Assembly: GCF_041200145.1 (NCBI RefSeq)
Contig: NZ_CP165734.1
Coordinates: 7,049,001 to 7,113,000 of the forward strand
DNA length: 64,000 bases
From: Bradyrhizobium sp. LLZ17
GTDB lineage: Bacteria > Pseudomonadota > Alphaproteobacteria > Rhizobiales > Xanthobacteraceae
Reading direction: 5' to 3'
The notes beneath the pieces are model-generated. The model was not told the DNA's origin. It searched no databases and saw only the letters and a program-made list of their open reading frames with translations. The translations under genes were made by a program, and so were the position numbers. This document shows, one piece after another, positions 22,344-47,760 of this stretch (positions are counted from its first letter, which is position 1; the number at the start of each line of letters is the position of its first letter).

Positions 22344-22357
22344 TAAATTCCAGTTTA
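22344..22357. promoter_or_regulatory. TAAA-N6-TTTA dyad (cupin/cytochrome promoter)
   Basis: TAAATTCCAGTTTA, in an otherwise GC-rich intergenic region, upstream of the cupin gene. Same pattern as the sites at 26725, 26746, 30486, 38381, 40669 and 43675. Confidence 0.55.
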
Positions 22358-22467
22358 ATGATCTGGCTGGTAGTGGCATACGCAGCTGGTGTGCCAAGCT
22401 GGTCAACTCCCCAGTGCCGGTCGCCGCCGAACCCGCGCCGAGCTCTTTGAGCATGCCAACTCTCGCT

Positions 22468-23454
22468 TTAGTAATGCTCGGCTGTCGAACTGATCTTGCC
22501 GCGAAATACGAAGTAGTTGATCGCCGTGTAGAGCAGCATCAGCGGGAAGACGAACAGGCCAGCGCCCCAGAACATGAAGGCGAGGCTCGCGTGAGGCGCG
22601 GCGGCCTCATCGATGGTGATGGCGAACGGGATCATGTAGGGCCAGAACGAGATCGCAAGCGTGCCGAACGCGGACACGAAGATGAGTGCCACCATCGGAA
22701 ACGGCAGTGTATCCTGACGAAGTCGGACACTTGTAGCGAGCATGATGGCAGCCAGTGCGCCGGCTATCGGGAAGACAAACAAGGAAGGTCGGTCGAGCCA
22801 GCGCGTCATTACCGGAAGGTCCTCCGCCAAGGCGTAGCCAAATACGATGGCCAGGAAGGCGAGCAGGGCGACCGACAAATAGGGAATGAAACGATAAGAC
22901 GCGTCGCGAACGTCGGCCTCACATTTCCGTACCAGCCAGCAGGCGCCGAGCAGTGCGTACCCAAGACAGAGCCCAACGCCGCACAGCACCGAAAACGGAC
23001 TTAGCCAGCCGGAGGCTCCACCGACATAGCGCGCGCCGACCATCGGAAGACCCTCAACCAGCGCGCCCACCATCAGGCCCTGCATGAATGCCGCGGCCAA
23101 GGAGCCGCCCGCGAATGCAGCGTTCCAGATCCACCGCGTCCGTGCTGCCTTACTACGAAACTCGAACGCGACGCCGCGCAGGATCAGTCCGGCCAGCATC
23201 AGCAAGACCGGCAAATAGAACGCCGAAATCAGTGTCGCATACGCAAGCGGGAACGCTCCCCACAACACGACGCCGGCGCTCACCAGCCAAGTCTCGTTGC
23301 CGTCCCAGATCGGCGCGACCGCGCTCACCATCGCGCGCCGTGGCGCCTCACCAGGGGTGATGCCGAACAGAATGCCGACGCCGAGATCAAAGCCGTCCAG
23401 CAATACGTAAAGCAGGATGCTGATCGCCAATACCGCGACCCAGAACATCACCAT
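22468..23454 (-). CDS. cydB: cytochrome bd-type oxidase subunit II (CydB/CioB)
   Basis: 328 aa, eight or nine transmembrane helices. Family hallmarks are YVLLDGFDLGVGIL near the N-terminus and PIWDGNETWLV. Partner of the haem-bearing subunit encoded directly upstream (2-bp gap). Together they form a quinol oxidase with high oxygen affinity or cyanide resistance; no proton pumping. Confidence 0.95.
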   Translation of the reverse strand: MVMFWVAVLAISILLYVLLDGFDLGVGILFGITPGEAPRRAMVSAVAPIWDGNETWLVSAGVVLWGAFPLAYATLISAFYLPVLLMLAGLILRGVAFEFRSKAARTRWIWNAAFAGGSLAAAFMQGLMVGALVEGLPMVGARYVGGASGWLSPFSVLCGVGLCLGYALLGACWLVRKCEADVRDASYRFIPYLSVALLAFLAIVFGYALAEDLPVMTRWLDRPSLFVFPIAGALAAIMLATSVRLRQDTLPFPMVALIFVSAFGTLAISFWPYMIPFAITIDEAAAPHASLAFMFWGAGLFVFPLMLLYTAINYFVFRGKISSTAEHY

Positions 23455-23456
23455 CG

Positions 23457-24863
23457 CTATTCTCCTGCGGTGAGCGGAAGGGCGGGGTTGCCTTGAAGGT
23501 CGGCGGCCGACATCGGGCGATTGGGAATGCCGGAGGTCGCCATCACGAGGCTGCCTGCAGGGCCTGTCCGCAGCAGGCGGTAGATGTAGAAAATCCCGAA
23601 CACGAAGATGAAGGTATAAAGAGCGCAGTACACCACGAGCGAAATCGCCGCCGTACGAGTTGTCAAAAAGGGTGTCATTGCATCAGCGGTCCGAAGCAGC
23701 CCGTAGATGGTCCAGGGCTGGCGTCCGACCTCCGCCGTGAACCAGCCGCTCAGCGTCGCGATGAAAGGCAGTGGAAAGCTCAGAAATATCGACCAGAGCA
23801 GGAGCGGATTGCGGTGAATCCGGCGCTTCCAGCACCAGTAGGAGCCGAGCGCGGCGAGGGCCAACATCAAGAGGCCGCAGCCGACCATGATGCGGAAGGC
23901 GAAGAAGGGAATAAGCACCGGTGGCCGGTCCCGCGGCGGAAAGCTGGTCAGGCCGACTTCCCTGGCATCAAAGCTCATGCTGCCGATCACGCTGCCGAGA
24001 ATCGGAATCTTGATTTCGTACCGATTGGTCTGCGAGGCCGCGTCAGGCACAGCGAACAGAACCTCGCCCGCGGGCTGCTCGTCGTGCCAACGGCCCTCGA
24101 TCGCCGCGAACTTCGCCGGCTGGTCGTCATGCGCGTAATCGCCGACGAGATGGCCAAACAGCAGTTGAATGGGAAGCAGCACGGCAGCTAGATACAGGCC
24201 CATCCGAAGCATGATACGGGCTTCCGGGGTGTAGATCCGTCTCAGCACGTACCACGCTCCCGTGGCAGCCACGCAGAACGCGCCGGTGAGATAGGCGGCG
24301 AGCAACATGTGCGGGAAACGCACCCAAACAACCGGGCTGAAGATGATCTTGAACCAATCGACCGGAACAAAAGCGCCGTTTTGCATGGCGTAACCGACCG
24401 GCACCTGCATCCAGCTGTTGTTGACCATGATCCAGAAGGCTGAAAGCGTCGTGCCCAGAGCCACCATGGCGGTGGAGAAAAGATAAAACCACGGCGGAAC
24501 GCGTTTGCGGCCGAACAGCAGAATTCCAAAGAAGCTCGCTTCCAATGCGAACGCGGTAAAACTCTCGTAGGAGAGTAGCGGCCCCTGAATCGGCCCCGAG
24601 ATCCGGGATAGCTCGCTCCAGTTCGTGCCAAACTGAAACGCCATCACAATTCCGGAGACCACGCCGAGACCGAAGGCAACGCCAAAGATCTTGAGCCAGA
24701 ACTCGAAGAGCGCGCGGTAGGCGGGGCGTCCTGTCGCGATGGACAATGCCTCCAGAATCGTGAGCCACGCTGCAAGGCCGATCGTGAACGATGGAAAGAT
24801 GATGTGGAAGGAGATAGTGAAAGCGAACTGAAGGCGCGACAGAAGCAGCGCTGTGAATTCCAT
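23457..24863 (-). CDS. cydA: cytochrome bd-type oxidase subunit I (CydA/CioA)
   Basis: 468 aa from ATG 24863, preceded by GGGAGG; a further in-frame start 21 bp upstream would overlap poxB. Contains FTISFHIIFPSFTIG with an axial His, the GRW motif of the quinol loop (IEGRWHDEQP), and nine-helix topology. The quinol loop is short, as in cyanide-insensitive CioA-type enzymes. Lies 11 bp after poxB; poxB-cydA-cydB form one operon in which pyruvate electrons could pass through quinol to oxygen. Confidence 0.95.
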   Translation of the reverse strand: MEFTALLLSRLQFAFTISFHIIFPSFTIGLAAWLTILEALSIATGRPAYRALFEFWLKIFGVAFGLGVVSGIVMAFQFGTNWSELSRISGPIQGPLLSYESFTAFALEASFFGILLFGRKRVPPWFYLFSTAMVALGTTLSAFWIMVNNSWMQVPVGYAMQNGAFVPVDWFKIIFSPVVWVRFPHMLLAAYLTGAFCVAATGAWYVLRRIYTPEARIMLRMGLYLAAVLLPIQLLFGHLVGDYAHDDQPAKFAAIEGRWHDEQPAGEVLFAVPDAASQTNRYEIKIPILGSVIGSMSFDAREVGLTSFPPRDRPPVLIPFFAFRIMVGCGLLMLALAALGSYWCWKRRIHRNPLLLWSIFLSFPLPFIATLSGWFTAEVGRQPWTIYGLLRTADAMTPFLTTRTAAISLVVYCALYTFIFVFGIFYIYRLLRTGPAGSLVMATSGIPNRPMSAADLQGNPALPLTAGE

Positions 24864-24874
24864 TGCTGCCTCCC

Positions 24875-26614
24875 TCAGCGCCAAAGATTGGAGCGGGCGA
24901 GGTCCACGACCTCGTCGCCGCGTCCGCTGATCACGGCCTTGATCATGTAAAGCGTAAAGCCCTTCGCCATCTCCAGCGTAATCGAGGGCGGCATCGCGAG
25001 CTCGGTTCGGTTCACAACCGCATCGATGAGAACTGGCCCGTCGTGGGCGAGCGCCGCAGCGATTCCATTATCGACCTCGGCCGGGTCTTCGAGGCGAATG
25101 CCGCGAATCCCCGCGGCTTCGGCCATCGCTGCGAAATTCGGATTCTTGAGCTCGGTTCCATAATCAAGTATTCCGGTCGACTTCTGCTCGAGCTCGATGA
25201 AGCCCAACGCACTGTTGTTGAACACGACGACCTTCACCGGAAGGCGCTGCTGAACGAGGGTAAGGAAATCTCCCATCAGCATCGTGAAGCCGCCGTCGCC
25301 AGAGAGCGAGATCACTTGCCGACCCGGACACGCGGCTTGCGCACCGAGGGCTTGCGCCATGGCGTTGGCCATGGAACCGTGCCAGAATGATCCGAGTAGC
25401 CGGCGCTTGCCGTTCATCTCGAGATAGCGGGCGGCCCACACTGTCGGCAGACCGACATCGCAGGTGAATACCGCATCTTCAGCTGCCTGCTCGCTGATCG
25501 CTTTCGCGACTTGCTGAGGGTGGATCAATCCGCCGCCCGGCCTGCCGACGGCAAGCTCGTCAAGCCCCTTGCGCGCCTTGGCGTAGTGTCGCTGGGCTTG
25601 CACGAGATGCGCAGCGTCGGTCTTCTGCGTGAGCAATGGCAGCAACGCCGCAAGCGTCTCGCTCACGCCGCCAACGACTCCGACATCGACCGAGGCCCGG
25701 CGGCCGATATTCTCGGGCCGCAAATCCACCTGCGCAATGCGCGCACCACCCGCCTCCGGATAGAACTGCCTGTAAGGAAAATCGGTCCCCAGCATCAACA
25801 GGACATCGCAGTCGCGCATGGCGTAATAACCGGAAGAAAAGCCGATCAGCCCTGTCATGCCAACGTCATACGGATTGCTCCACTCAACGTGTTCCTTGCC
25901 GCGCAAGGCGTGCACCATCGGTGCTTGGAGCAATTCACCGAGGGCGAGCAGCTCGTCATGGGCGCCCGCGCATCCTGAGCCGCACAAGATCGTCACGCGG
26001 CTTGCGTCGTTGAGCAATTTCGCCAGCCGATCGAGATCGGCGGGAGCGGGTGTGACGACCGGAACAGGTGGTAGCAACATTGCGCGCTTCGGCGGTGGCG
26101 CCACTGCTGCGACCTGCAAGGCGACGTCCCCCGGAATGACGAGGACTGACGCGCCGCGCTTGCCGACCGCCTCCCGGATCGCGGTCTCCAAGGCGCGCGG
26201 CATCTGGTGGGATCCGGACACGAGCTCGCAGTAGTGGCTGCATTCCCGAAACAGCTCTTGCGGGTGCGTCTCCTGAAAGTACCCGCTGCCGATTTCCGGT
26301 GAGGGAATGTGTGCAGCGATCGCAAGAACGGGCACGCGCGAACGGTGGCAATCGAACAGTCCATTGATGAGGTGAAGATTGCCGGGTCCGCAACTGCCCG
26401 CGCACACAGCGAGTTCGCCCGTCAGATGCGCGTCGGCGCCGGCGGCAAAGGCCGCCACTTCCTCGTGCCTGACGTGAATCCAATCGATCTTCCCATGGCG
26501 GCGAATAGCGTCGGTGAGGCCGTTGAGGCTATCGCCGACCACGCCATAGATGCGTTTGATTCCCGCAGCCGCGAGGCTTTCCACGAACTGGTCGGCGACT
26601 GTTTTGGTCGGCAT
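24875..26614 (-). CDS. poxB: pyruvate dehydrogenase (quinone)/pyruvate oxidase-type TPP enzyme
   Basis: 579 aa, starting [20 protein letters not shown] after GGAGG. Three-domain ThDP enzyme: PYR domain with catalytic Glu in [10 protein letters not shown] (about 50), central FAD-binding domain, and PP domain with SGDGGF...NNSALGF (about 430-460). Bacterial PoxB converts pyruvate to acetate and CO2 with electrons to ubiquinone at the membrane. Operon with cydAB supports this quinone-linked role. Two TAAA-N6-TTTA dyads lie 111-145 bp upstream. A fragment of a second copy is at 29520-29690. Confidence 0.92.
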
Positions 26615-26724: not shown

Positions 26725-26759
26725 TAAATTGGCTTTTAGGCCGACTAAATTCGAGTTTA
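26725..26759. promoter_or_regulatory. paired TAAA-N6-TTTA dyads (poxB-cydAB promoter)
   Basis: TAAATTGGCTTTTA at 26725-26738 and TAAATTCGAGTTTA at 26746-26759; starts are 21 bp apart, two helical turns, so two dimers could bind on one face. No supported gene lies in the remaining 26760-27045. Confidence 0.6.
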
Positions 26760-27045
26760 CAAGCTGTGCGGCGGCTTCAATTGGCTCGGCCACCACTGCC
26801 CAGAGGTTTGCGACTGTTGAGGCGTCGAGAGATTGCGCCGTTGTCCCCTGAGGCTTTGAACGCAGCGCGAAAGGCGTGGCGACGAGCTATGGCGCTATCC
26901 TGTGCAATGCGCGTTCGCAGCTGGCCACATTTTTGCAAGCCGACGCGCAGAACGTCGGCTGTGCAATGCTATCAGTGCTCGTTAAGCCTCTGCTCGCAGC
27001 ATCGAGTCAGTTGGTTCGGAAAAACCAGTCGGAGCTTCGCCGGAG

Positions 27046-28288: not shown

Positions 28289-29242
28289 CTATGCCGCTTC
28301 CATCTGTTTATTGCGCTCCTCCGGCTCGGAATTCGATGCCGACCTGTCCGGCCTGAGGTTCCTCCTGGCGGCCCGCTTGACCTTTTCAAACGCGCAGGTT
28401 TCGATTTGCCGGACGCGCTCGCTAGAGATCGACAGTTCGCACGCCAGGACCTCGAGCGTGGCAGGGCGGTCGTTTAGCCGGCGCGCCTCAAACACGCGTC
28501 GTTCGCGTGACGTAAGAGTATCCACTGCGGCGCGCAGCGCGCGTGCTTGCTGCTCAGATTCGTCGTGTTCGGCCAGGAGCGCCTCCGCCGTCGGCGATGG
28601 GTCGACCAGCCTCGACTGCCAGTCCACCGTCTCGCTATCTTCGCTAACCAGCCTGTTCAGCGACAGGTCGCCATTCAGGCGGCTGTCCATCTCCAGAACG
28701 TCGCGAGGCGAAACCTCCAGCCGCTTAGCGATGGCATCGGCCACCTCCGGCGTGAGGCTGGACGTCTCGCTGGCAAGCTTCCTCATTTCGCGCCTGAGAC
28801 TGAAGAACAGCTTCTTCTGGGCAGCCGTCGTTCCGATCTTGACCAGTGACCAGGATCGAAGAATGTAGTCGTGGATCGTAGCCTTGATCCACCACAGCGC
28901 GTAGGTCGAGAAGCGCGAGCCTCGAGCCGGCTCGTATCGAGATGCGGCCATGACCAGACCGAGATTGGCTTCGGAGATGATGTCAGCGAGCGGGAGGCCA
29001 TATCCCCGATAGCGCTTCGCCACGCTCGCGGCGAGCCGAAGATGGCTGGTCACGAGGGCGTCAGCAGCTGTTTGATCGCCCAACTCTTGCCAGCGGCGCG
29101 CAAGCTGCTGCTCTTGCTCCTGTTCAAGCATCTCGAAACGGCGTATGGCGCCAGCGTACCGTCCAAACGGGGATGACTCCGTCCGATTGATCGCCGTGGT
29201 TTTCAAACTGGTTTGCGCGACGGCTACGTTGCAGTCCTGCAT
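28289..29242 (-). CDS. rpoH: RpoH-type (sigma-32 family) RNA polymerase sigma factor
   Basis: 317 aa. Region 2 (SHLRLAASVAKRYRGYGLPL, then STYALWWIKATIHDYILRSW), RpoH box (QKKLFFSLRREMRKL), region 3, and region 4 HTH (RPATLEVLACELSISSERVR). Length and motifs match alphaproteobacterial RpoH, of which these bacteria often have several; this may be a secondary stress copy. A degenerate TAAA dyad lies at 29326-29339 upstream. A scrambled partial copy of the gene is at 32767-33260. Confidence 0.9.
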   Translation of the reverse strand: MQDCNVAVAQTSLKTTAINRTESSPFGRYAGAIRRFEMLEQEQEQQLARRWQELGDQTAADALVTSHLRLAASVAKRYRGYGLPLADIISEANLGLVMAASRYEPARGSRFSTYALWWIKATIHDYILRSWSLVKIGTTAAQKKLFFSLRREMRKLASETSSLTPEVADAIAKRLEVSPRDVLEMDSRLNGDLSLNRLVSEDSETVDWQSRLVDPSPTAEALLAEHDESEQQARALRAAVDTLTSRERRVFEARRLNDRPATLEVLACELSISSERVRQIETCAFEKVKRAARRNLRPDRSASNSEPEERNKQMEAA

Positions 29243-29325
29243 GATGCAGCTCCGATGATTGAGCCCAGCATCTATGGATTAGGGAACGAGCTGCCGATGC
29301 GCTATTAAAAGGCAATTCCGGCGTT

Positions 29326-29512
29326 TAAATTCCCTGTTAGCTGAACGGGGGGCGCGACCGAGTGCGCGCTCGAGGCAGGTTGGTGGCGGGGATCTCAAGC
29401 GGCGGTGGAGCTTGACGCAGCTTCCTGCGCCGGCGCGGGCCGGTCGCGGAACGTTTGCTGCAGACGATCAAGATAGAGGTAGACCACAGGCGTCGTGGAC
29501 AGCGCCAGCAGC
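29326..29512 (-). pseudogene. 3' end fragment of an RND efflux transporter gene
   Basis: Closely matches 33271-33458, the last codons and downstream flank of the intact RND gene; the translation ends TTPVVYLYLDRLQQ then PAPAQEAASSSTAA and stop. The similarity starts in the shared spacer (CTGTTAGCTGAA) and stops sharply at 29512. It is evidence of a former second copy of the RND region next to the sigma-factor gene. Confidence 0.8.
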
Positions 29513-29519
29513 TACGCCA

Positions 29520-29720: not shown

Positions 29721-30416
29721 CTACGGGCCCAAATCTCGATCTAGATTGATGAGCATGGAACAAGCAACGCCCGCCGGCCCGAAGTGGAGTTGCACGTCGC
29801 CGTATTGGTCGAGAGCCTTCGTAATCAGGCGCGAACCAAAACCGCGGCGCTTGGGCTGCTGCACCTCCGGCCCGCCAGCCTCGTACCAGACAAGGGCGAG
29901 CTTACCGGCGGCTCCGAGTGTCTGCTGGACCTCCCAGGTTAGATTGACAGTCCCGCCTGTTGAACTCAGCGCCCCGTATTTCCTGGCGTTCGTGGCGAGC
30001 TCATGAACGACCAAGTGCAACCAAAGTGCCAGCTGCGATCCAAGTTCTACATCGGGTCCGCCCAAGACGACCTGACCGCTTCGTGCGCAACAGGAACGCA
30101 TCGTCTGCTCCAGCAATTCAGCGAGCCGGATTCTCCCTGTGTCCGATCGGTACATCACTTCATAAAAGTCGCTCAAGCCGGAAATTCGGGCGATCACCTT
30201 TTGGCGGTAATCGTGCACGGTCCGAGATTCCGTCTGTCCAAGAACCGCTTCGATCATGGCCAGCAGATTCCGAATCCGATGATTGACCTCCTGCAGCAAA
30301 AGAGGGAGGCCTTCGCCGTTCATTCGAGCGCGTGGACCTCTGTCGCCGGCCGTTCGGGGGACGCTCAGGATTCCGGAGGTACCGTCATGCTGATATCGAT
30401 CCATCTGATTTCCCAT
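29721..30416 (-). CDS. HWE-family sensor histidine kinase (soluble)
   Basis: 231 aa from ATG 30416 (TTG 30440 and ATG 30404 are alternatives; no start has a strong ribosome site). The phosphoacceptor motif EVNHRIRNLLAMIEAV is near the N-terminus, followed by the N-box VVHELATNARKYGAL and a W-x-E segment (VWYEAGGP), defining the HWE/HisKA_2 class typical of rhizobia, often linked to general stress signalling. No sensory or membrane domain, so it probably takes its input through a partner. A perfect TAAATTCGAATTTA palindrome lies 70 bp upstream. Confidence 0.85.
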   Translation of the reverse strand: MGNQMDRYQHDGTSGILSVPRTAGDRGPRARMNGEGLPLLLQEVNHRIRNLLAMIEAVLGQTESRTVHDYRQKVIARISGLSDFYEVMYRSDTGRIRLAELLEQTMRSCCARSGQVVLGGPDVELGSQLALWLHLVVHELATNARKYGALSSTGGTVNLTWEVQQTLGAAGKLALVWYEAGGPEVQQPKRRGFGSRLITKALDQYGDVQLHFGPAGVACSMLINLDRDLGP

Positions 30417-30485
30417 TGGCTTCTGAAGACAAGGGGACAATAGATCGTTGAAAAACTCAGGCCACTGAACTCGCGTTTCCTCAAT

Positions 30486-30499
30486 TAAATTCGAATTTA
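30486..30499. promoter_or_regulatory. perfect TAAATTCGAATTTA palindrome
   Basis: A 14-bp perfect palindrome between the ohrR-like gene and the HWE kinase gene. It is the best match to the recurring TAAA-N6-TTTA pattern of the 22-44 kb region and is placed to control the kinase. Confidence 0.6.
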
Positions 30500-31027: not shown

Positions 31028-31043
31028 TGGAACCTCCACAAAA

Positions 31044-33335: not shown

Positions 33336-36300
33336 TCAAGCGGCGGTGGAGCTTGACGCAGCCTCCTGCGCCGGCGCGGGCTGGCCCCGGAACCTCTGCT
33401 GCAGGCGATCAAGATAGAGGTAGACCACAGGCGTGGTGAACAGCGTCAGCAGCTGCGAAAGTATCAGCCCACCGACGATCGTATACCCGAGCGGCTGTCG
33501 TATCTCGGATCCCGTGCCGGTGCCCAGCATCAGCGGCACCCCACCCAAAAGCGCTGCCATCGTCGTCATCAGAATAGGTCTGAAGCGGAGCACGCAGGCC
33601 TGATAGATCGATTGCTCGGATGTCAGCCCTTCATTGCGCTCCACCTCGAGGGCGAAGTCGACCAGCATGATGCCGTTCTTCTTGACGATGCCAATCAGCA
33701 GAATGATCCCAATGATCGCGATCACGCTAAGATCCATATGCACGACGATGAGGAGAAGCAACGCGCCGATGCCGGCGGAGGGCAGGGTGGAGAGGATGGT
33801 GATGGGATGAATGAAGCTTTCGTACAGCACGCCGAGGATGATGTAGATGACGATCAGCGCCGCGAGGACCAGCACTAGCTCGCCGGAAAGTGCCGCCTGG
33901 AATGCGTTCGCGTTGCCTTGGAAGGTGGTGGCGAGCGAGAGCGGCTTGCCGCTGCTGCGTTCGAACTGCTGGATCGCGGCAACCGCGGTGCCCAGTGCCG
34001 CCCCCGGTTTCAGGTTAAACGAAATCGTGGTCGAGGGGAACATTCCCTGATGGTTGATAACGATCGGCGCGGCGGTGACGGTGCTTTTGGTGAGTGTGCT
34101 CAGCGGGACTTGTTGTCCGTTGGAGGAGTTGAGATAGATCTGCTGCAGCACAGTTGGGCTGGTTTGGAAGCGCGGAAGGACTTCCAATACCACGTGATAC
34201 TGGTTGAGCGACGTGAAGATGGTGGAGACGATGCGCTGGCCAAAGGCGTCGTCGAGCGTATTGTCGATGGCCGAAGGGAGAATCCCGAAGCTTGACGCGA
34301 CCTCCCGGTTAACGGCAACATCAAGGCGCGGCCCGGCGTTCTCCTGGTCGGTCGTCACGTCGGCAATCTCTGGAATGCTCTTCAGCTTGTCCAGGAAGAT
34401 GGCCGACCAGTGATTGAGCTCGTTCTGGTCGGAATCGGTCAGCGTATATTGAAACTGGGTCTTGGCCAGCCGCGCACCGACCGTGATGTCCTGGGCGGCT
34501 TGCATGTAAAGCGTGATGCCCTCCACCGAGGCGAGCCTGGTTCGGAGCCGGTTGATCACTCCGTCTGCACTGGCGTCGCGCTGCTCGCGCGGCTTGAGCG
34601 TAATGAAGACGCGTCCCTGATTGACCGTGGCCACCCCGCCACCGGCGCCGATCGCGGAGCCCACGGACAGGACCGCGGGATCCTCGACCAGCTTGGCGAT
34701 GACGGCGTGCATGCGCTGGCTCATTGCGGGGTAGGAGATATCCTGTGCGGCTTCGGCGACCCCGACGATCAGGCCGGTGTCCTGCTGCGGAAAGAAGCCC
34801 TTTGGAATGACAACGTACAGATAGCCGGTTACGGCGATGGCCAGGAACATCGTCATCAGTGTGATGAGGCGGTGGCGTAGCGCCAGCTTCAGTCCACGTT
34901 CATAGAGCGCAAGCAGCCCGTCAAAGGCGCGTTCGGACTGCCGGTAGAGCCATCCATGATTGCCCGTGTCATGCTTGAGCAGGCGTGAGCACATCATCGG
35001 GGTCAGCGTCAGCGAGATCACGAGCGAGAGGATCAGCGACACGCTCACCGTGATCGCGAATTCCTGGAACAGCTTTCCAACGTAGCCGCCCATCAGGAAC
35101 AGCGGGATAAAGACTGCGATCAGCGACAGCGTGATCGAGATGATCGTGAAACCGATTTCGCGCGAACCCCTCAGGGCCGCCTCCATCGGACTCAATCCTG
35201 CTTCAAGATGGCGGACGATGTTCTCGATCACCACGACGGCGTCGTCCACCACAAAGCCGATCGCGATCGATAGTGCCATCAGCGAGAGATTGTCCAGGCT
35301 GTATCCGAGCGCATAGAGGGCGGCGAAGGTGCCGATCAGCGATAGCGGTACGGTGATGGCGGGTATTACCGTGGCCCAGAAATTGCGCAGGAAGACGAAA
35401 ATGACCATCACGACAAGTGCGACCGTCAAGAGCAGCGTGAACTGCACGTCGGAAACGGAGGCTCGAATCGTCTGGGTGCGGTCGGACAGAATATCGAGCT
35501 TGATGCCCGGCGGCAGCGCGGCCTGTAGCTGAGGCAGCTGGGACTTGATCAGGTCGACGGTCTGGATGACGTTGGCGCCGGGTTGGCGTTGAATGGCCAG
35601 GATGATCGCCGGTTGTTTGTTGACGAAAGCGCCGATCTGGTTGTTCTCGGATGCTTCGATGACACTGCCGATGTCGCTGACGTGCACCGGTGCGCCGTTG
35701 CGGTACGCGACGATCAGGTTCTTGTAGGCGTCCGGCTTGAGCAGCTGATCGTTGGTGCCCAGCGTAAAGGTCTGGTGCGGACTGTTCAGCGTGCCCTTCG
35801 GCTGATCAACATTGGCCTGCATCAGCACGTTGCGGACGTCTTCCAGGCCGATGCCGCGATTGGCAAGTGCCTGCGGATCGACCTGGACCCGGATCGCCGG
35901 CTTTTGCTGCCCGCCAATACCGATCAGGCCGACGCCCCCGATCTGCGAGAGTTTCGGCACCAGGATGTTTTCGGTAAAGGCGTCCACCGTCGTGAGCGGC
36001 AACGTGTCGGACGTCAAGCCGAGCACCAGGATCGGCGTGTCCGCAGGGTTTACCTTGCGGATGGTCGGAGGGTAGGGAATTCCTGTCGGCAAATATGGCG
36101 TCGCCGCATTGATCGCGGCGAGAACGTCGGTCGCCGCGCTGTCGATATCGCGGCTGAGATCAAATTGCACGGTAAGCTGGGTGTAGCCGAGTGCGTTCGC
36201 AGAGGTCAGCTGGGTCAAACCGGGGATCTGCGAAAATTGCTGCTCAAGGGGTGTCGCAACCGACGAGGCCATGGTCTGCGGATCGGCGCCAGGCAGCCGC

Positions 36301-36446
36301 GCGGTCACCGAGATCGTCGGGAAGTTGACGTTCGGCAGGGAGGCGACGGGAAGCAGGCGATAGCTGACCAGCCCGCCGAGCAACAGCCCGGCCATCAGCA
36401 GCACCGTGGCGATTGGCCGGTGAATGAACGTCGCGGATATGTTCAT
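33336..36446 (-). CDS. RND efflux transporter (HAE-1, MdtB/MdtC-like)
   Basis: 1036 aa from ATG 36446; the open frame upstream lies inside the fusion-protein gene. Begins NISATFIHRPIATVLLMAGL; twelve transmembrane helices with two large periplasmic loops; the proton-relay pair is in GFVVDDAVVVIENIV; LRFRPILMTTMAALLGGVPL lies near the end. Closest in style to MdtB/MdtC, which export bile salts, novobiocin and similar compounds by proton antiport. Overlaps the membrane-fusion gene by 4 bp. No outer-membrane channel gene adjoins. Confidence 0.95.
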   Translation of the reverse strand: MNISATFIHRPIATVLLMAGLLLGGLVSYRLLPVASLPNVNFPTISVTARLPGADPQTMASSVATPLEQQFSQIPGLTQLTSANALGYTQLTVQFDLSRDIDSAATDVLAAINAATPYLPTGIPYPPTIRKVNPADTPILVLGLTSDTLPLTTVDAFTENILVPKLSQIGGVGLIGIGGQQKPAIRVQVDPQALANRGIGLEDVRNVLMQANVDQPKGTLNSPHQTFTLGTNDQLLKPDAYKNLIVAYRNGAPVHVSDIGSVIEASENNQIGAFVNKQPAIILAIQRQPGANVIQTVDLIKSQLPQLQAALPPGIKLDILSDRTQTIRASVSDVQFTLLLTVALVVMVIFVFLRNFWATVIPAITVPLSLIGTFAALYALGYSLDNLSLMALSIAIGFVVDDAVVVIENIVRHLEAGLSPMEAALRGSREIGFTIISITLSLIAVFIPLFLMGGYVGKLFQEFAITVSVSLILSLVISLTLTPMMCSRLLKHDTGNHGWLYRQSERAFDGLLALYERGLKLALRHRLITLMTMFLAIAVTGYLYVVIPKGFFPQQDTGLIVGVAEAAQDISYPAMSQRMHAVIAKLVEDPAVLSVGSAIGAGGGVATVNQGRVFITLKPREQRDASADGVINRLRTRLASVEGITLYMQAAQDITVGARLAKTQFQYTLTDSDQNELNHWSAIFLDKLKSIPEIADVTTDQENAGPRLDVAVNREVASSFGILPSAIDNTLDDAFGQRIVSTIFTSLNQYHVVLEVLPRFQTSPTVLQQIYLNSSNGQQVPLSTLTKSTVTAAPIVINHQGMFPSTTISFNLKPGAALGTAVAAIQQFERSSGKPLSLATTFQGNANAFQAALSGELVLVLAALIVIYIILGVLYESFIHPITILSTLPSAGIGALLLLIVVHMDLSVIAIIGIILLIGIVKKNGIMLVDFALEVERNEGLTSEQSIYQACVLRFRPILMTTMAALLGGVPLMLGTGTGSEIRQPLGYTIVGGLILSQLLTLFTTPVVYLYLDRLQQRFRGQPAPAQEAASSSTAA

Positions 36447-37612
36447 GGGATTTCCTGCTCGACGGAGTTCTGGAGATCTGCTTCCTGCGCTGCGCTGCCC
36501 TGGAGCTCCTGCACGCGGGTACCAGGCTGAAGCCTGTATTGCCCATCGACCACAATCTTCTCGTTGGCCTGAAGCCCTGAATCGATCAGCGCGCTGCCAT
36601 CGCTGATCTCGGCAACCCTCACTGGCCGCGTCGTCACGGTTTCGTCTGCCCCAATCATCCAGACGAAGGGCCCGTGTGGTCCCTGCTGAATGGCTGAGGC
36701 GGCAATGGTCAACCCGTTGTGGCGGGTTTCGAGAAAGAGTCGCGCATTGATGAGTTCGCCCGGCCAAAGCATCCGTTTCGCATTGGGAAAGCTCGCCCGT
36801 AGCTTGATCGTGCCGGTGGTCTGGACGATCTGGTTGTCCACCAGATCAAGCTTGCCCTCGTCGAGCTGGGTCTTGTCATCCTGACTATAGGCGAGCACCT
36901 TCAGTGGTCCCTTGGCCATCTCCCGATTGATCTCCACAAAGTCGGTCTGGGGAAGCGAGAACAGCAATGAGATTGGCTGGATCTGGGTCACATCCACTAG
37001 GCCAGCTGTATCGGTCGGATGGATGATGTTGCCGATATCGACCTGGCGAAGGCCGGTCACGCCGTCGATTGGAGATGTCAGCTGCGTATAGCTCAAATTC
37101 GTCTTCGCTTGCTCGATGACGCCCTCATCGGACTTCACCATCGCCTGAAGCTGGGCCAATTGGGCCTTCGTGGTATCGACGAGCTGCGTGCTTGCCCAAC
37201 CGTTCTTGGCCAGCGGCACGTACCGGTTCAGATTGGCCTGTGCATTGTCGACTTGCGCCTGATCGCGATCGCGATTGGCGATCGCCTGATCGAGCTGCGC
37301 TTGATAAGGGCGCGGATCGATCTCGGCGAGGAGATCGCCTTTTTTGACGGTCTGTCCCTGCGTGAAGGCGATCTTGATGAGCTGGCCGGTGATCTGGCTG
37401 CGCACGATGACGTTGTTATAGGCAATCACCGTGCCTACGCCACGCCGGTAGATCGGCACGTCGTGACGAACCACCGTTCCCGCCACGACCGGCACCGAAT
37501 CCGGCGCAACGCCAACCATGTTCGGTTTGGGCGGGCGGATTTGCCGGGCGACCAATGCAGCTCCTCCGGCAACCACCACGCCAGCGAGAATAACGAGCCA
37601 TAGCTTGCGCAT
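36443..37612 (-). CDS. RND membrane-fusion protein (MdtA-like)
   Basis: 389 aa. N-terminal anchor (LWLVILAGVVVAGGAALVA), barrel-sandwich motif (RSQITGQLIKIAFTQGQTVK), helical hairpin (about 95-165), beta-barrel and membrane-proximal domains. Periplasmic adaptor for the RND pump encoded next, with a 4-bp overlap. The Ser-rich secreted protein gene precedes it by 19 bp. Confidence 0.93.
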   Translation of the reverse strand: MRKLWLVILAGVVVAGGAALVARQIRPPKPNMVGVAPDSVPVVAGTVVRHDVPIYRRGVGTVIAYNNVIVRSQITGQLIKIAFTQGQTVKKGDLLAEIDPRPYQAQLDQAIANRDRDQAQVDNAQANLNRYVPLAKNGWASTQLVDTTKAQLAQLQAMVKSDEGVIEQAKTNLSYTQLTSPIDGVTGLRQVDIGNIIHPTDTAGLVDVTQIQPISLLFSLPQTDFVEINREMAKGPLKVLAYSQDDKTQLDEGKLDLVDNQIVQTTGTIKLRASFPNAKRMLWPGELINARLFLETRHNGLTIAASAIQQGPHGPFVWMIGADETVTTRPVRVAEISDGSALIDSGLQANEKIVVDGQYRLQPGTRVQELQGSAAQEADLQNSVEQEIP

Positions 37613-37631
37613 GCAACGCTCCCTGAAGCAG

Positions 37632-38222
37632 TCAGCAGCCTGATGAGGATGAAAAATTGTTCGTGCCGGTAGCGCCGCTCATCGAGGAAGCGGAGGAGCC
37701 GGACGTGCATGGCGCCGTGGTGTACGCAGTGCCCGAAGTATTGGGTAGCGGTACCGCTGTCATCGGGCTTTCGCCGCTGGTATCGGCCTCCGTTGCACCC
37801 AGCGGGATCGTGCCGCCAACCACGCCCGCCGTCGAGGCCGCAGGCTGGCTTGAATAGGTTGTGCTGCTTGATGTCGTGGCGCAGCTTGAGCTCGGTGTCA
37901 TGCCGCCGCCATCGAAGGTCGATGACGAGGATGAAGAGCTGCTCGTTGCACCCGTAGAAGAGGTCGACGACGTACCCATTGCGCCCGTCGAGCCAGTCGC
38001 ATTGCAGGACGCGCTAACCGTCGGACCTAGACCGCCAGAATCGATTTCGGTTGCCCCAAGCGGGACGCCGGCGCCAGTAAAGCTGCTGCTCGTTCCGTTG
38101 GAGCCCAGTGTGCCCATCGGGGAAGTCGCACCCATTGCCGAGGGGCCGGCGGTTGTTTGCGCGTCGCTGGCTGCGCTGGCGCAAAGCAGCGCAAGCGCTG
38201 CCACGAACAATCGTCGCCGCAT
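37632..38222 (-). CDS. Ser/Thr/Gly-rich secreted protein
   Basis: 196 aa from ATG 38222, whose distance to AGGAG is optimal (ATG 38228 is immediately 5'). Signal peptide (LFVAALALLCASAASDA). The mature protein is low-complexity Ser/Thr/Gly with two PLGATE(I/A)D repeats and scattered Cys (C83, C122, last residue region). Similar Ser-rich exported proteins occur in Bradyrhizobium. Being first in the RND operon, it may be an envelope protein needed with the pump; function unknown. Confidence 0.7.
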   Translation of the reverse strand: MRRRLFVAALALLCASAASDAQTTAGPSAMGATSPMGTLGSNGTSSSFTGAGVPLGATEIDSGGLGPTVSASCNATGSTGAMGTSSTSSTGATSSSSSSSSTFDGGGMTPSSSCATTSSSTTYSSQPAASTAGVVGGTIPLGATEADTSGESPMTAVPLPNTSGTAYTTAPCTSGSSASSMSGATGTNNFSSSSGC

Positions 38223-38360
38223 CGGCATCTCCTGATCATCGATTTGCAAATCGCCCTCTGAACCAACGAGAGTTCCGTTGAACCGATAGGAGCGGTTCGA
38301 CGCGTCGGCTTCGAGGCGTTAGCTAGGAGTAGAGATACGCGGCCGGCGGATTGGGGCCAC

Positions 38361-38394
38361 TAAATTCTCACCGGCAAAGTTAAACTCGAATTTA
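38361..38394. promoter_or_regulatory. TAAA dyads upstream of the Ser-rich/RND operon
   Basis: A full site TAAACTCGAATTTA at 38381-38394 and a half-site TAAATTCTCA at 38361-38370, about 20 bp apart, the same paired spacing as at the poxB promoter. About 140 bp upstream of the start at 38222. Confidence 0.55.
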
Positions 38395-38462: not shown

Positions 38463-39857
38463 TCAACTGACTTGCGGTGGACCGCGTTCGAACACGATCT
38501 CCGCAACGCAACCCCGTCCGGTTGGCGCTGGCGACAGCCCGAACTGAACTCCGTGCAATTTTGCGATCGCAACCACCAGGCTCAGACCCAATCCAAGCCC
38601 AGGCTCTCCGCGGCTTTTGTCGGATCGATAGAAGCGTCTCGTGACGAGGTCACGCTCGCTCGGCGCGATTCCGCGCCCGGTGTCGCTGACGTGCACGATG
38701 CTCTTTTCTCCGATGCGACAGAGCTTGAGCTCGATATGCCCGCATTCCGGCGTGAATTTCACGGCGTTGTCGACGAGATTTGCAATGGCCTCGAACAGCA
38801 GGTCGCGATCGCCCTGAACCACCATCTTCTCTTTGGCTTCTACGACTAGGGTTACGCCTTTGTCTTTGGCCATAGGCTCGTAGAGCTCTCCAACGTCGCG
38901 TACCAACTCCGCCAGGTCGACCTCACGGAACCCCTCCAAACGCCGACTATGCTCGATTTCGGTGATGCGGAGCAGGGCAGTGACCATCGTTAATGATTGG
39001 TCGAGCCCCCCGATGGCGCGATCGACAGCCTCCTTCAGCTCGTCAAGAGTCTTCGCTTTGTGCCGTCCGCTCTCCAGGGTCATCCGCACATTCGTGAGCG
39101 GCGTTCGCAGGTCGTGAGCGATGTCGTCGCCCACTCCGGCAACACTACGCAGAAGCTCCTCCATTTCATCCAGCATTGCATTGATAAGCCGCGCCAGCTC
39201 GGTGAAGGGAGCCCCACCTTGTTCCGGCAAGCGTTCGCGCAATTCGCCCGCCACGATGCGTTGGATCTGCCGGTTGTATTGGTCGAGCCGTTGTTGCGTC
39301 CTGATGCTCAGGAATGCTCCAAACAGCGAACCAAGGCACAGCGCCGGAATGAGCCCCCATGCGACTGCTCGCTCTATCGTGCTGCCGATTTCAGACAGCT
39401 CGTCGGTGTTCCGGCCGATGAGGAGGATCGCTCCATCATCAAGCTTGCGTGCGACGGCGCGTGCCAACTGTTGCTCGCGGCCGGCGGCATCGATCCGCAC
39501 CACTGAAAGCTGCTGTGGTGGGGTGTCTGGCTGTAGGTTGCGCGGCAGACTTTCAATGTTTCCGATCACACGGTTTCCGTGCGCGTCGAAGAGGCCGCCG
39601 AGCTTCACCCGCCGCGGATCCCCGTCGAGGTGTTGCTGGAGGGCTTGGAGCCGCTGCTGTGGAGGAAGGCTGGAGAACGTATTGGCGCGATCGATAATCA
39701 GTCGATCGACACTCGCGGTCACGTATCTGGAAGTCGGCCAGTAGATGAAGGCGATGATCAGGAAGACGCAGATCGCGAACGCGCCGATTGCGACCACGGT
39801 CCCGCGAAGAATGGTCGATCGGAAGGCTCTCGTTCGAATAATCTTAGGAAGGGGCAC
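38463..39857 (-). CDS. membrane sensor histidine kinase
   Basis: 464 aa from GTG 39857. Two transmembrane segments (about 15-36 and 168-190) around a periplasmic sensor region; HAMP; H-box IAHDLRTPLTNVRM; N-box NLVDNAVKFTP; DTGRGI and GLGLGLSLV. It overlaps the response-regulator gene by 14 bp and is its cognate kinase. Divergent in function from the RND operon, which it may control. Paralogue of 31345-32718. Confidence 0.92.
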   Translation of the reverse strand: MPLPKIIRTRAFRSTILRGTVVAIGAFAICVFLIIAFIYWPTSRYVTASVDRLIIDRANTFSSLPPQQRLQALQQHLDGDPRRVKLGGLFDAHGNRVIGNIESLPRNLQPDTPPQQLSVVRIDAAGREQQLARAVARKLDDGAILLIGRNTDELSEIGSTIERAVAWGLIPALCLGSLFGAFLSIRTQQRLDQYNRQIQRIVAGELRERLPEQGGAPFTELARLINAMLDEMEELLRSVAGVGDDIAHDLRTPLTNVRMTLESGRHKAKTLDELKEAVDRAIGGLDQSLTMVTALLRITEIEHSRRLEGFREVDLAELVRDVGELYEPMAKDKGVTLVVEAKEKMVVQGDRDLLFEAIANLVDNAVKFTPECGHIELKLCRIGEKSIVHVSDTGRGIAPSERDLVTRRFYRSDKSRGEPGLGLGLSLVVAIAKLHGVQFGLSPAPTGRGCVAEIVFERGPPQVS

Positions 39858-40521
39858 GCAACATAAATCCTTCTCCCCGGATATTGAGGATCATCGGCGG
39901 CTGGCCGGCCGGATCGACCTTGCGGCGGAGCCGACCCATATGCACATCGACGAGATTGCTCTGGGGCACGAACTTGTAGTTCCAGACTTCTTCAAACAGC
40001 ATCGCTCGCGTGAGCAGTTGGTCGACGCGGCGCATCATGTATTCGAGTAGCCGAAACTCGCGCGGCAAAAAGATCAAGCGGGCGACCCTCGCGCATAGCG
40101 GTGCGCTCCAGCAAATCGACTTCAAGTGGTCCGACCCGCAGCACGGTGTCCCGGCTTTCACCAGGCCTTCGCAGCAGGGCCTCAATCCTCGCAATCAGCT
40201 CCAGGATCGCAAATGGTTTGGTCAGATAGTCGTCACCGCCGGCCCGCAACCCACGAATTCTGTCATCCACCGCTCCGAGGGCGCTCAAGACCAGAACGGG
40301 GGTGCGCACCTGCTCCTGCCTGGCAACCTCGATGATGGTCAGGCCGTCGATCCGGGAAGCAGACGGTCGACGATCATGACATCGGCCCCGCCTGCGCGAG
40401 CTTTGTCGAGTCCCTCAATGCCCGTCGCCGCCCGGTCGACCTCGTATCCACGACCCGCGAGTTCAGCCGCGATCTGTTGGGCGGTCTCGTCGTGATCCTC
40501 GATCAGCAGCACCTTCGGCAT
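39844..40521 (-). pseudogene. OmpR-family response regulator, two frameshifts
   Basis: Receiver start MPKVLLIEDHDETAQQIAAE at ATG 40521 (AAGGAAG upstream), phosphoacceptor Asp in [11 protein letters not shown]; a frame change at 40351-40353 (one G short), then [20 protein letters not shown] and the receiver Lys in YLTKPF; a second change at the A5 run 40067-40071 (one base extra), then [14 protein letters not shown] and winged-HTH end VHMGRLRRKVD...GEGFMLRA. Correcting both gives a normal 225-aa regulator. Both events are in homopolymers, so sequencing error is the likely cause. TAAA dyads lie in its promoter. Confidence 0.85.
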
Positions 40522-40649: not shown

Positions 40650-40682
40650 TAAATCCAGTTTAGTTTTGTAAATTCGACTTTA
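40650..40682. promoter_or_regulatory. paired TAAA dyads upstream of the two-component genes
   Basis: TAAATTCGACTTTA at 40669-40682 and a one-base-shorter TAAATCCAGTTTA at 40650-40662, 19 bp apart. They lie about 130-160 bp upstream of the response-regulator start, suggesting autoregulation or cross-regulation. Confidence 0.55.
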
Positions 40683-40795: not shown

Positions 40796-42982
40796 TCAGC
40801 TGGCGCGAAGTGCCGCCAACACTTTTCGCGGCGTGAACGGCACCGAGCGCAGGCGTACGCCAGTAGCTTCGAACACGGCCCCGGCAATGGCCGAAGGGAC
40901 GACGGCGCAGGTAGGCTCCCCGCCGCCCCAGGGGACCTCTTGCGGGCGATCGATCAGATCGATAACGATCTCTGGGATCTCAGGGAAGCTTAGAATGGGA
41001 TAGCTCGCCCAATCAAGGCTCGTGACCATGGAGCGATCGAAGGTCACTTCCTCCTTCAGGATTCGGCTCACGGTTTGGACAACGCAGCCCTCGATCTGAT
41101 TGCGCAGTCCGTCAGGGTTGATGATCTGGCCGCAATCATGCGCCACGTAGAAGCGTTTCACCGCAAGGGCGCCAGTCTTGCGGTTGATTTCCACATCGGC
41201 GATGGCGCCGACATAGGTGCGCACCAGCTCGTATTTCACATAGGCAAGCCCGCGTCCCGTGACGACCTCGGCATTGCGATCCGGTTTTCGCCGCTCACGC
41301 CATTTGCTGAGCTTAGCCAGTCGCTCCAGCAGTTCCTTGCCGCGCGCGTCCTCGAGATGTTGAAGCCGGATGTCAAGCGGATCCGCGCCAACGCTCGCCG
41401 CAATCTCGTCAAGGAAGGATTCGTTGGCAAAGGTATTTTGCAGGCGCCCGGGCGAGCGGATCCAGGCAGGTCGCAAGGGTGTCGACTGCAATCGGTGGGC
41501 GGTGGTCGTGACGTTTGGGATATCATACGGAATCGAGAGATCGTTGAGCACACCGCCAGGGCTGAGCTTGCCAAGACTGTTAAGCCCGGCAAGGTCAGCG
41601 CCGGTGAGCGGCACAAAAGTCGCCGATCCGTCAGGCACGAACAGTTCGGATTCCCACGCCGCCAGATTTCCCTGCGGATCGACCCCGGCTTGCATGTCGA
41701 GTAGTGTCGGCGGTCCCTTGGGATCCCAGCCGTGCTCATCGGCGCGCATCCATTGCACCCGAACCGGCCTGCCCACCGCACGCGCCAGCAGCGCCGCATC
41801 GGCCGCGGCGTCTTCGTGCCCATTGCGGCCGTAGCAGCCCGCGCCCTCGACATAGACGCAGCGAACGTCCGCGTGGGATAGTGCCAGCATCGCAGCCAGT
41901 TGCTTGCGCAAATCGTGTGTCGCCTGCGAGGCGGTCCAGCAGGTGAGCTTGCCATCGATAAAGGTCGCCACGGCACAGGACGGGCCGATCGAGCCGTGGG
42001 TGTGGATCGCGAAATCATAGGTTGCCCGAAGCTTGCGTGGCGCGGCACCAAGGACCGCGCGCGAGCTGCCGAGACGGCTGGTGACATCGTCATGCACGAC
42101 GGGCGTATTGCGTACGTGCTCCCAGATTTTGCTCTGGTCCGGGAGGTCATTCCAGCTTGACCAGGTTACCTTCATCTGTTGGGCGGCCTTGATTGCGCTC
42201 CATTCGCTTTTGGCGACGACGCCAAGAAAGTTGCTGATGCGGACGATCTTCACTATTCCAGGTATGTCGGCGATTGAAGACTCGTCATAGGAGACGAGCG
42301 TCGCACCGAACCCCGATGGACGCACCACTCGGCCATGCAGCATGTCGGGAAGCTTGAAATCCTGCATGAAAGTGAAGCGGCCATCCACCTTGGCCGGAAT
42401 GTCCAGGCGGCGCACCGGCTTGCCGACGACGGTGTAATCGCCAGGCGCCTTCTGCGGCGCGTCCGTTTCGATGTCGAGAGCAAGGCTCGTTGGTTCAACG
42501 AGACTCCCAATCGGCAGCCGCTCGCCGCCTGCGGCAGTGACGACACCGTTTCGGATCGAAAGCGTGGAAATGTCGCGATCCATCTGCGCGGCCGCGCGGC
42601 GCAGAAGGGCTCGACGCGCCGTGGCCGCAGCGCGGCGCAGCTGCATGCCGCCGCTCTGAATCGAAAAGCTTCCGCTGGTCGTGCCCTGGTCTGGCGTGAG
42701 CGCGGTGTCGCCTTCGATGATCGTGATCTGGTTCATGGAGACGTCAAGCTCGTCCGCGACGATCTGGGTTAATGCGGTCCGCACCCCGGTGCCGAGATCG
42801 ACCTTTCCGGAATAGACCGTCACCCTTCCATCCTGTGCGACAGCAAGGAAGCCGTCGACCCGATCAGGCGACAGGGTTTTTTCGGCGGCGGCCGTCTCGG
42901 CGCGTGCCATCGGCAGGCTAAAGGCCACAATGAGCGCGCCACCTGCCTGCAACACCTTGCGCCGATTCATCATCTCGTCCAT
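40796..42982 (-). CDS. molybdopterin-binding subunit of a xanthine-oxidase-family hydroxylase (IorB/aldehyde oxidase-like)
   Basis: 728 aa from ATG 42982 (AAGGAG upstream). N-terminal Tat signal (NRRKVLQAGGALIVAFSLPMA). Duplicated Mo-cofactor-binding fold with glycine-rich GAGCYGRNGHEDAA (about 390). The two-subunit arrangement with a [2Fe-2S] partner and no FAD subunit resembles isoquinoline 1-oxidoreductase and membrane-associated aldehyde dehydrogenases that pass electrons to a cytochrome or quinone. Substrate not readable. Confidence 0.88.
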   Translation of the reverse strand: MDEMMNRRKVLQAGGALIVAFSLPMARAETAAAEKTLSPDRVDGFLAVAQDGRVTVYSGKVDLGTGVRTALTQIVADELDVSMNQITIIEGDTALTPDQGTTSGSFSIQSGGMQLRRAAATARRALLRRAAAQMDRDISTLSIRNGVVTAAGGERLPIGSLVEPTSLALDIETDAPQKAPGDYTVVGKPVRRLDIPAKVDGRFTFMQDFKLPDMLHGRVVRPSGFGATLVSYDESSIADIPGIVKIVRISNFLGVVAKSEWSAIKAAQQMKVTWSSWNDLPDQSKIWEHVRNTPVVHDDVTSRLGSSRAVLGAAPRKLRATYDFAIHTHGSIGPSCAVATFIDGKLTCWTASQATHDLRKQLAAMLALSHADVRCVYVEGAGCYGRNGHEDAAADAALLARAVGRPVRVQWMRADEHGWDPKGPPTLLDMQAGVDPQGNLAAWESELFVPDGSATFVPLTGADLAGLNSLGKLSPGGVLNDLSIPYDIPNVTTTAHRLQSTPLRPAWIRSPGRLQNTFANESFLDEIAASVGADPLDIRLQHLEDARGKELLERLAKLSKWRERRKPDRNAEVVTGRGLAYVKYELVRTYVGAIADVEINRKTGALAVKRFYVAHDCGQIINPDGLRNQIEGCVVQTVSRILKEEVTFDRSMVTSLDWASYPILSFPEIPEIVIDLIDRPQEVPWGGGEPTCAVVPSAIAGAVFEATGVRLRSVPFTPRKVLAALRAS

Positions 42983-42993
42983 GGCGCGTCTCC

Positions 42994-43455
42994 TTACGAG
43001 CTTGCCGCAGCGCGCATGACCGCACGCAGAATCCGCAGATGCGTTCCGCAACGGCAAAGATTGTTCGCCAGTTCTGTCTTAATGTCTTGCTCGCTCGGCT
43101 TCGGATTGCGCGCCAAAAGGTCCGCCGACTGCATGATCATGCCGTTGATGCAGTAGCCGCACTGGACTGCCTGCTCTTCGATGAACGCGCTTTGCAGCGG
43201 ATGGGGATTGCTGGTCGTGCCGAGGCCTTCGAGCGTCACGACGCGGCCGGACACTGCGGATAGCGGTGTAACGCAGGACCGAACTGCCGTTCCATCGACG
43301 TGGACGGTGCAGGCGCCGCATTGGCCGAGACCGCAACCGAAACGCGGTCCATGCAGACCAAGCTCATTTCTCAGCACGTAAAGCAGGGGAGTATCAGGAT
43401 CATCGACGGTTACTGAAGCGGCTTTACCGTTCACGTTCAAGGAAGTCGTTGCCAT
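42994..43455 (-). CDS. [2Fe-2S] subunit of xanthine-oxidase-family hydroxylase (IorA-like)
   Basis: 153 aa from ATG 43455. Plant-type [2Fe-2S] motif GCGLGQCGACTVHVDG with a further Cys near RSCVTPL, and the second cluster ligands CGYCINGMIM and CRCGTHLRI. Electron-transfer partner of the downstream Mo subunit (11-bp gap). The pair is probably exported together by Tat using the large subunit's signal. Confidence 0.92.
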   Translation of the reverse strand: MATTSLNVNGKAASVTVDDPDTPLLYVLRNELGLHGPRFGCGLGQCGACTVHVDGTAVRSCVTPLSAVSGRVVTLEGLGTTSNPHPLQSAFIEEQAVQCGYCINGMIMQSADLLARNPKPSEQDIKTELANNLCRCGTHLRILRAVMRAAASS

Positions 43456-43615
43456 CGTATAATTCCTGCCTTGCGCTCCGGTCGCCAAGCTCTTGCCAGG
43501 TTGGAGCGCGATGACGCCGCGATGAAAGAGCCGTAAGTGCCGCACATCGAGCGGGTTAATGACAGGAGCGAAGTAGGGAGGTGGCGCGCTCGCCCCAAAC
43601 AAAAAATCTTGAGTA

Positions 43616-43688
43616 TCAATTTGAATTGAGCGCTCGGTAGCTTTGCGTCCGACTGGAGTCCCGCTCATCAAGCCTAAATCCAAATTTA
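43616..43688. promoter_or_regulatory. TAAA dyads upstream of the hydroxylase operon
   Basis: TAAATCCAAATTTA at 43675-43688 and a related TCAATTTGAATTGA palindrome at 43616-43629. They lie 160-230 bp from the [2Fe-2S] gene and about 100 bp from the divergent DUF305 gene, so could control either. Confidence 0.5.
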
Positions 43689-47747: not shown

Positions 47748-47760
47748 AAACAGGTGCGTC

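Follow-up and report, generated by a model that had tools for sequence, protein, structure and literature searches.

A rare palindrome clustered upstream of respiratory, efflux and redox-stress genes in Bradyrhizobium is the putative operator of a local OmpR-family response regulator

The palindrome TAAA-N6-TTTA (hereafter the dyad) is concentrated in 21 kb (22344-43688) of a 64,000-nucleotide window from Bradyrhizobium sp. LLZ17 (contig NZ_CP165734.1, positions 7,049,001 to 7,113,000), and the weight of evidence favours its being the operator of an OmpR-family response regulator encoded at the same locus and similar to AgrR, CopR and CusR. We place the probability of this reading at roughly 0.78. 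An initial annotation of the window had listed seven exact dyads (Table 1), all of which lie where it placed them, and had named the OmpR-type regulator as a good candidate for their cognate protein, a choice that gains support from the conserved dyad upstream of the regulator's own gene. It overlooked that the regulator frame is broken in this assembly, that the sites stand in a fixed register with promoter-like sequence and that the motif marks longer stretches in other species.

Eight copies of TAAA-N6-TTTA occur in the window against an expectation of 0.08 (shuffled sequences gave a mean of 0.08 and a maximum of 2), and TAAATTCGAATTTA is found nine times in the window at three or fewer mismatches, versus 0.70 expected. 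When the scan was extended to the whole genome (7,803,520 bp in a single contig), as the initial annotation had suggested, it yielded 10 exact dyads, seven of which fall inside the 21 kb, while the other three have unrelated centres; the same pattern read backwards, as a control, is present in 29 copies. One of the three, at 61018-61031 (TAAAGAACCGTTTA), is the eighth exact dyad of the window; it lacks the consensus centre and is probably due to chance. Among spacers of 0 to 15, six is the only one enriched. In the window, the fifteen other spacers together give 2 dyads, and across the window plus six related stretches, each 80-140 kb as fetched rather than delimited by island borders, they give 14 altogether versus 114 at N6 (window 8, G019 20, G137 18, G031 23, G028 15, G015 12 and G158 18). 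These 114 dyads are overwhelmingly intergenic, although 74-81% of the sequence is called coding. Relative to open reading frames (ORFs) predicted from composition by a simple rule, 104 dyads lie outside, 8 within and 2 on a boundary. An equal frequency inside coding regions, which would have spoken against the initial annotation, is consequently not seen, and seven of the eight window dyads lie outside called ORFs, the remaining case, 43675, being discussed below.

The dyad is also conserved upstream of the regulator gene. A scan with five orthologues returned 112 confirmed relatives, and of the best 80 among them, 41 carry an exact dyad in the 400 bp that precede the regulator, as compared to none with the reversed motif. 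This includes 30 of the 32 loci with at least 86% regulator identity and all four loci at 72-75%, two of which belong to Agrobacterium and Neorhizobium. We consider the agreement of these two genera at 72% to be the strongest single point for the predicted operator. Regulator paralogues at 49-51% identity have no dyad (0/7); of five orthologues placed beside them, two have the exact dyad, two the TGAA form and one neither. Regulators at 57-60% identity (Mesorhizobium, Methylorubrum CM4 and Beijerinckiaceae plasmids) show no exact dyad in the stretches fetched, and in Methylorubrum CM4, TAAATTCGCGTTCA, with one mismatch, is located about 100 bp upstream of the regulator. As a separate observation, the TGAA-N6-TTTA form seen in a clade of 79-85% identity (L108-L149) lies mostly at -180 and possibly reflects a one-base shift in one half-site.

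A further feature of the dyads is their position relative to promoter-like sequence. Alignment of 83 dyads, with orientation fitted to the model, reveals an asymmetric flank, and among 56 regulator promoters with a dyad, TGG occurs at +15 in 52 and CTA at +37 in 42. Because TGG and CTA can be read as -35 and -10 elements, the dyad centre would lie 42-44 bp before the transcription start, which is a class II position. The dyads are also frequently paired. Of the 24 distances between partners up to 60 bp apart, 20 fall at 19-21 bp, and 14 of these are exactly 20 bp. A spacing of 18-22 bp to a partner is seen for 20 of the 114 exact dyads, as against about 0.3 expected by density. In these counts, both pairs of two exact dyads and orthologous promoters enter more than once.

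When other members of the genus are examined, the strict motif TAAANTCGANTTTA is found in 23 of 195 genomes, including that of strain LLZ17, and it is often clustered. Genome-wide dyad counts are 7-57 in fourteen genomes hand-picked from these 23 versus 1-8 in ten genomes without the strict motif. For the reversed pattern, the corresponding counts are 29-90 and 26-59, so the strict-motif genomes are somewhat richer in such words generally. Four of the clusters hold homologues of some, with not all in each, of the cupin, haem-protein, cydAB, RND, rpoH-like and kinase genes of the window, and a Trans_reg_C (OmpR-type) domain is encoded in or near each of five stretches searched (G000, G019, G137, G031 and G028; in G031, some 8 kb beyond the initially fetched part). 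In G137, the ORFs adjoining dyads encode an FMN reductase, FdhD, a molybdopterin oxidoreductase, a cupin, an AraC regulator, an NAD-binding dehydrogenase, a di-haem peroxidase, a DUF305 protein, a ferritin-like protein, the rpoH-like gene product and the response regulator, while several other dyads have an adjoining ORF without a Pfam match or no ORF nearby. The theme of the dyad-linked genes would appear to be redox, metal or envelope stress. A recurrent predicted target that the initial annotation overlooked is the rpoH-like gene. An exact dyad precedes 16 of 53 rpoH-like matches, which were filtered but not made unique, and the count rises to 22 when TGAA-type dyads are included, versus 0 in the control. 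In the six related stretches (L077 repeats G028), the rpoH-like gene always has two sites in tandem at a 20-bp distance, one of them of the TGAA type; the rpoH-like gene of the window has only the weak dyad at 29326. Genome G083 carries TAAATTCGAATTTA as well, and its stretch L073 has no DNA match to the part of the window compared.

Based upon these features, several inferences can be made regarding function. A dimer of the regulator would bind TAAA-N6-TTTA head to head, with the promoter-proximal site abutting the -35 region, its centre approximately 42-44 bp before the presumed start, and a second site often located about 20 bp, or two helical turns, further upstream. In such an arrangement, the regulator would serve as a class II activator of a housekeeping-type promoter, activation being favoured over repression, and it would probably do so after phosphorylation by the neighbouring kinase in response to a signal. 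Its targets would comprise its own gene, the rpoH-like sigma factor gene and operons for respiration, efflux and redox stress. More tentatively, the accessory island present in some Bradyrhizobium may constitute a two-tier circuit, in which its own activator controls many island promoters together with its own RpoH-like sigma factor. We regard this broader scenario as possible rather than probable; the island could move between species as a self-wired regulon because the operator word is rare in genomes that lack it.

Several observations weigh against the dyad as the operator of this regulator. Many dyads of the relatives lie outside the fetched stretches (within-stretch versus genome-wide counts are 20/34 for G019, 18/27 for G137, 23/47 for G031, 15/44 for G028, 12/33 for G015 and 18/32 for G158), and their confinement is therefore looser than in the window's genome. 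In the clade with 79-85% regulator identity, merely 7 of 42 loci have the exact dyad and 15 have TGAA-N6-TTTA or its mirror, leaving 20 with neither; below 70% identity, it is 0 of 2. Loci of one genus are not independent of each other. No dyad precedes 31 of the 53 rpoH-like genes. Plasmid p184_1 (NZ_CP064696.1, 92001-242000; L054-L056) encodes an open regulator at 81% identity along with much of the gene set, and it has only 3 exact dyads in 150 kb, two of which are upstream of rpoH and of the regulator. Lastly, the reading frame of the regulator breaks twice in the present assembly, a point that pertains to this strain.

Other proteins could in principle recognize the dyad. Sites of 14 bp that have 5-4-5 symmetry and lie near -42 at respiratory genes typify the CRP/FNR family, and a CRP/FNR activator binding the dyad would be in keeping with this geometry, with the bd oxidase as a target and with the 24-35 HTH_Crp_2 matches per Bradyrhizobium genome. 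This family acts genome-wide, yet 7 of 10 dyads of the genome are found in one 21-kb stretch; furthermore, the dyad tracks a single response regulator subfamily, and no HTH_Crp_2 (PF13545) match was obtained among the candidates scored in the same five stretches searched for Trans_reg_C, all of which renders a CRP/FNR protein very improbable. Only a little better placed, and still improbable, is the suggestion that the sequence serves mainly as a promoter read by the locus's own RpoH-like sigma factor, with the palindrome as one of its parts. An rpoH-like gene accompanies the regulator in many loci, with a dyad in all six related stretches, and the flank has its conserved TGG and CTA, but a perfect palindrome with a strict N6 spacer and tandem copies at 20 bp is operator-like, the -10-like CTA is one that we take to fit a housekeeping-type promoter, and Agrobacterium and Neorhizobium retain the regulator dyad in loci where no rpoH-like gene passed the filters. 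The initial annotation had also put forward OhrR (30518-31204), whose gene adjoins the perfect site at 30486, and MarR-type proteins do bind palindromes. This candidate fares worst and seems scarcely credible. It has no homologue in four related stretches at 1e-8, a tblastn search of the loci fetched by then gave empty output, and its segment is absent from the B. hipponense stretch, where the other dyads remain. An OhrR-type gene exists in 133 of 146 Bradyrhizobium genomes; among the matches listed, those of G015, G019, G028, G031 and G137 lie outside their dyad stretches, and G053, with 57 dyads, has no match among the 20 of 36 candidates scored. The protein itself scores 127.6 bits with the OhrR model, versus a cut-off of 200.

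A different type of alternative concedes that the sites are operators and holds that strain LLZ17 has lost or is losing the system, its regulator being a pseudogene and its sites either relics or now used by another regulator. This is unlikely overall, albeit a serious minority possibility, and it is compatible with the regulator-operator pairing in the relatives. In long alignments to the B. hipponense stretch (94-95.5% identical), where the regulator frame is open across the 223 codons compared, the window's regulator has two frame-changing single-base indels of opposite sign. Both domains occur in one open frame in the relatives and not in the window copy, in which one piece passes the Trans_reg_C cut-off (74.6 versus 26.2 bits) and the receiver match covers half the domain at 28.1 bits, below the cut-off of 30.2. 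No other regulator of this genome exceeds 50% identity to the island type, and the dyad stretch is shorter than in the relatives. On the other hand, the sites are near-perfect, and the B. hipponense stretch, at 95% identity, keeps both regulator and sites. Opposite-sign single-base indels can be sequencing errors, and the same comparison has one frame-changing indel each in the stretches counted as the FeS gene and cydA, despite their long ORFs. The frame breaks may thus be sequencing errors or real decay, both being compatible with the alignment.

Regarding family membership, regulator orthologues align at full length with response regulators, and the nearest curated models are CzcR/SilR/CopR for the regulator and CzcS/SilS/CopS for the kinases, both with scores below cut-off (TIGR01387: 212.1 versus 279.2 bits for the G019 orthologue; TIGR01386: 173.1 and 168.8 versus 292.55 bits for the two kinases). 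Judging from sequence, the regulator would work in the manner of the AgrR/CopR/CusR class, although its score places it outside the curated subfamily. HK2 is a paralogue of HK1, and TIGR01386 is the best NCBIfam model for both. Two regulator paralogues, L041:8609-9478 (G137) and L069:1183-2091 (G176), share the DNA-binding part and, by eye, have an N-terminal half without a recognizable receiver.

Table 1. Dyads and principal genes of the window; TGG- and CTA-like positions in the flanks of the sites were judged by eye.
Feature	Position	Strand	Context
Dyad TAAA-N6-TTTA	22344..22357	-	upstream of cupin/haem-protein pair; then GTGG, CTA at +36
Promoter-proximal dyad	26725..26738	-	upstream of poxB-cydA-cydB; then ATAA, CTA at +36
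Distal dyad	26746..26759	-	21 bp from 26725
Weak dyad, one mismatch	29326..29339	-	upstream of rpoH-like gene
Perfect dyad TAAATTCGAATTTA	30486..30499	-	upstream of HWE kinase gene
Proximal half-site AATTTA	38361..38374	-	upstream of Ser-rich/RND operon; then GTGG, GTATCT at +36
Distal dyad	38381..38394	-	upstream of Ser-rich/RND operon; 20 bp from 38361
Proximal 13-bp N5 variant	40650..40662	-	upstream of response regulator gene; then ATGA, CTA at +38
Distal dyad	40669..40682	-	upstream of response regulator gene; 19 bp from 40650
Dyad	43675..43688	+	between Mo-hydroxylase FeS gene and DUF305 gene; ATTG, -10 unclear
Cupin gene and gene for CXXCH-bearing protein	21323..22281	-	CXXCH protein without Pfam match
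cydB, cydA (bd oxidase), poxB-type pyruvate oxidase	22468..26614	-	
RpoH-like sigma factor gene	28289..29242	-	TIGR02392: 330.8 bits, above cut-off of 323.1
HWE histidine kinase	29721..30440	-	
Second sensor kinase HK2	31345..32718	+	no regulator gene beside it
RND permease, adaptor, Ser-rich protein	33336..38249	-	
Sensor histidine kinase HK1	38463..39857	-	adjoins regulator
OmpR-family response regulator	39844..40521	-	frame broken twice; partial receiver and Trans_reg_C on separate pieces
Mo hydroxylase large subunit and 2Fe-2S subunit (TTG-start ORF)	40796..43761	-	
DUF305 protein	43773..44246	+	

At the level of individual sites, the three pair distances in Table 1 are those given by the initial annotation, and its proposal of shared targets stands insofar as the sites have the properties expected of one regulator's operators. 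It had assigned 43675 to both the Mo hydroxylase and the DUF305 gene; from the orientation of the flank, this site would serve DUF305 rather than the Mo hydroxylase. It falls in the TTG-start extension of ORF 42994-43761 and is probably intergenic, because the first Pfam domain of this ORF starts only at residue 109. At its counterpart in L153, the exact dyad is lost and the proximal half kept, and when the window is compared with L152 and L153, the AATTTA half nearest the promoter is retained along with the -10-like sequence where the flanks diverge. The perfect site at 30486 is followed by ATTG, and a weak half-site 20 bp further on has, by eye, GTGG and CTA in register. The weaker sites of the initial annotation are of unequal standing: 40650 is an N5 variant, 38361 merely a half-site, and 29326 does precede the rpoH-like gene, while 33271 is probably no promoter site, since it lies 65 bp past the RND stop and faces no gene start in the vicinity. 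Sites 29326 and 33271 sit in the two copies of a direct repeat (198 columns, 87% identical).

Some additional characteristics of the locus were also observed. The direct repeat (29319-29516 and 33264-33457) flanks a segment with the HWE kinase, the OhrR-like gene and HK2. Nothing collinear with this segment is present in the B. hipponense stretch L071, in which the sequences to either side of it adjoin. In the OhrR-like ORF, about 75 residues precede the part matching relatives, and its start codon is doubtful. No convincing gene is apparent in 19000-21300, 27000-28280 or 32720-33330; within the last of these, 33029-33270 aligns at 85% with the rpoH region of L071 and is perhaps a gene remnant. 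A plus-strand run of ORFs at 45728-51521 resembles citrate-lyase genes (CitE-, CitC- and CitF-like by eye).

If correct, these predictions would provide gene-rich stretches of a major soil and nodule genus with a sequence-defined regulon, consisting of an operator, a promoter register and a candidate regulator, and would tie bd oxidase, pyruvate oxidase, RND pumps, di-haem peroxidase, ferritin-like protein, Mo enzymes and a sigma factor to one sensor. Like the dyad, FNR/FixK boxes are 14-bp palindromes near -42 at respiratory genes; they differ in having a TTGAT half-site bound by a Crp/Fnr protein, and among the candidates scored, the dyad stretches have no HTH_Crp_2 match. A literature search across titles and abstract openings retrieved no report of the present system, which is no proof that none exists. 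RetPC57 of Rhizobium etli is similar, being a rhizobial OmpR-type regulator whose gene accompanies those for a kinase and an RND pump, but it is called CpxR-like, and the portion of that report covered here gives no operator (PMC7769827). We had considered it as the same system, and rejected it, there being no Rhizobium etli record in 13 plasmid matches at 1e-60.

The closest parallels are found among metal-responsive regulators. CusR, CopR and CzcR bind palindromes (PMC11195947), and together with PcoR, they share with the system predicted here the nearest curated models, palindromic operators, autoregulation and RND pumps as targets (PMC11195947, PMC8249747); the difference is that the proteins of this locus score below the curated cut-offs. 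The CusR regulon has been called very restrictive (PMC11195947), though binding of phosphorylated CusR from E. coli to more than 10 targets is reported (PMC8249747). The present regulator, if the predictions are true, would be CusR-like with wide, locally clustered sites, as opposed to a close relative described as very restrictive. The AgrR box of Cupriavidus metallidurans is a 16-bp inverted repeat, ATKACA-N4-TGTMAT (PMC7380067), and AgrR, an autoregulated type II activator of the OmpR family, resembles the system predicted here also in that the proximal half is the better conserved one and that further half-sites lie in phase (PMC7380067). In contrast, the motif here is TAAA-N6-TTTA, complete second dyads lie some 20 bp off, and sites are far more numerous within one stretch. 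A palindrome upstream of the regulator's own gene is a trait of the CopR/CusR/AgrR class, and the predicted operator occupies this position in exact form in 41 of 80 loci. Whereas the architecture would be that already known from this class, the dyad sequence and the wide local set of predicted sites set it apart.

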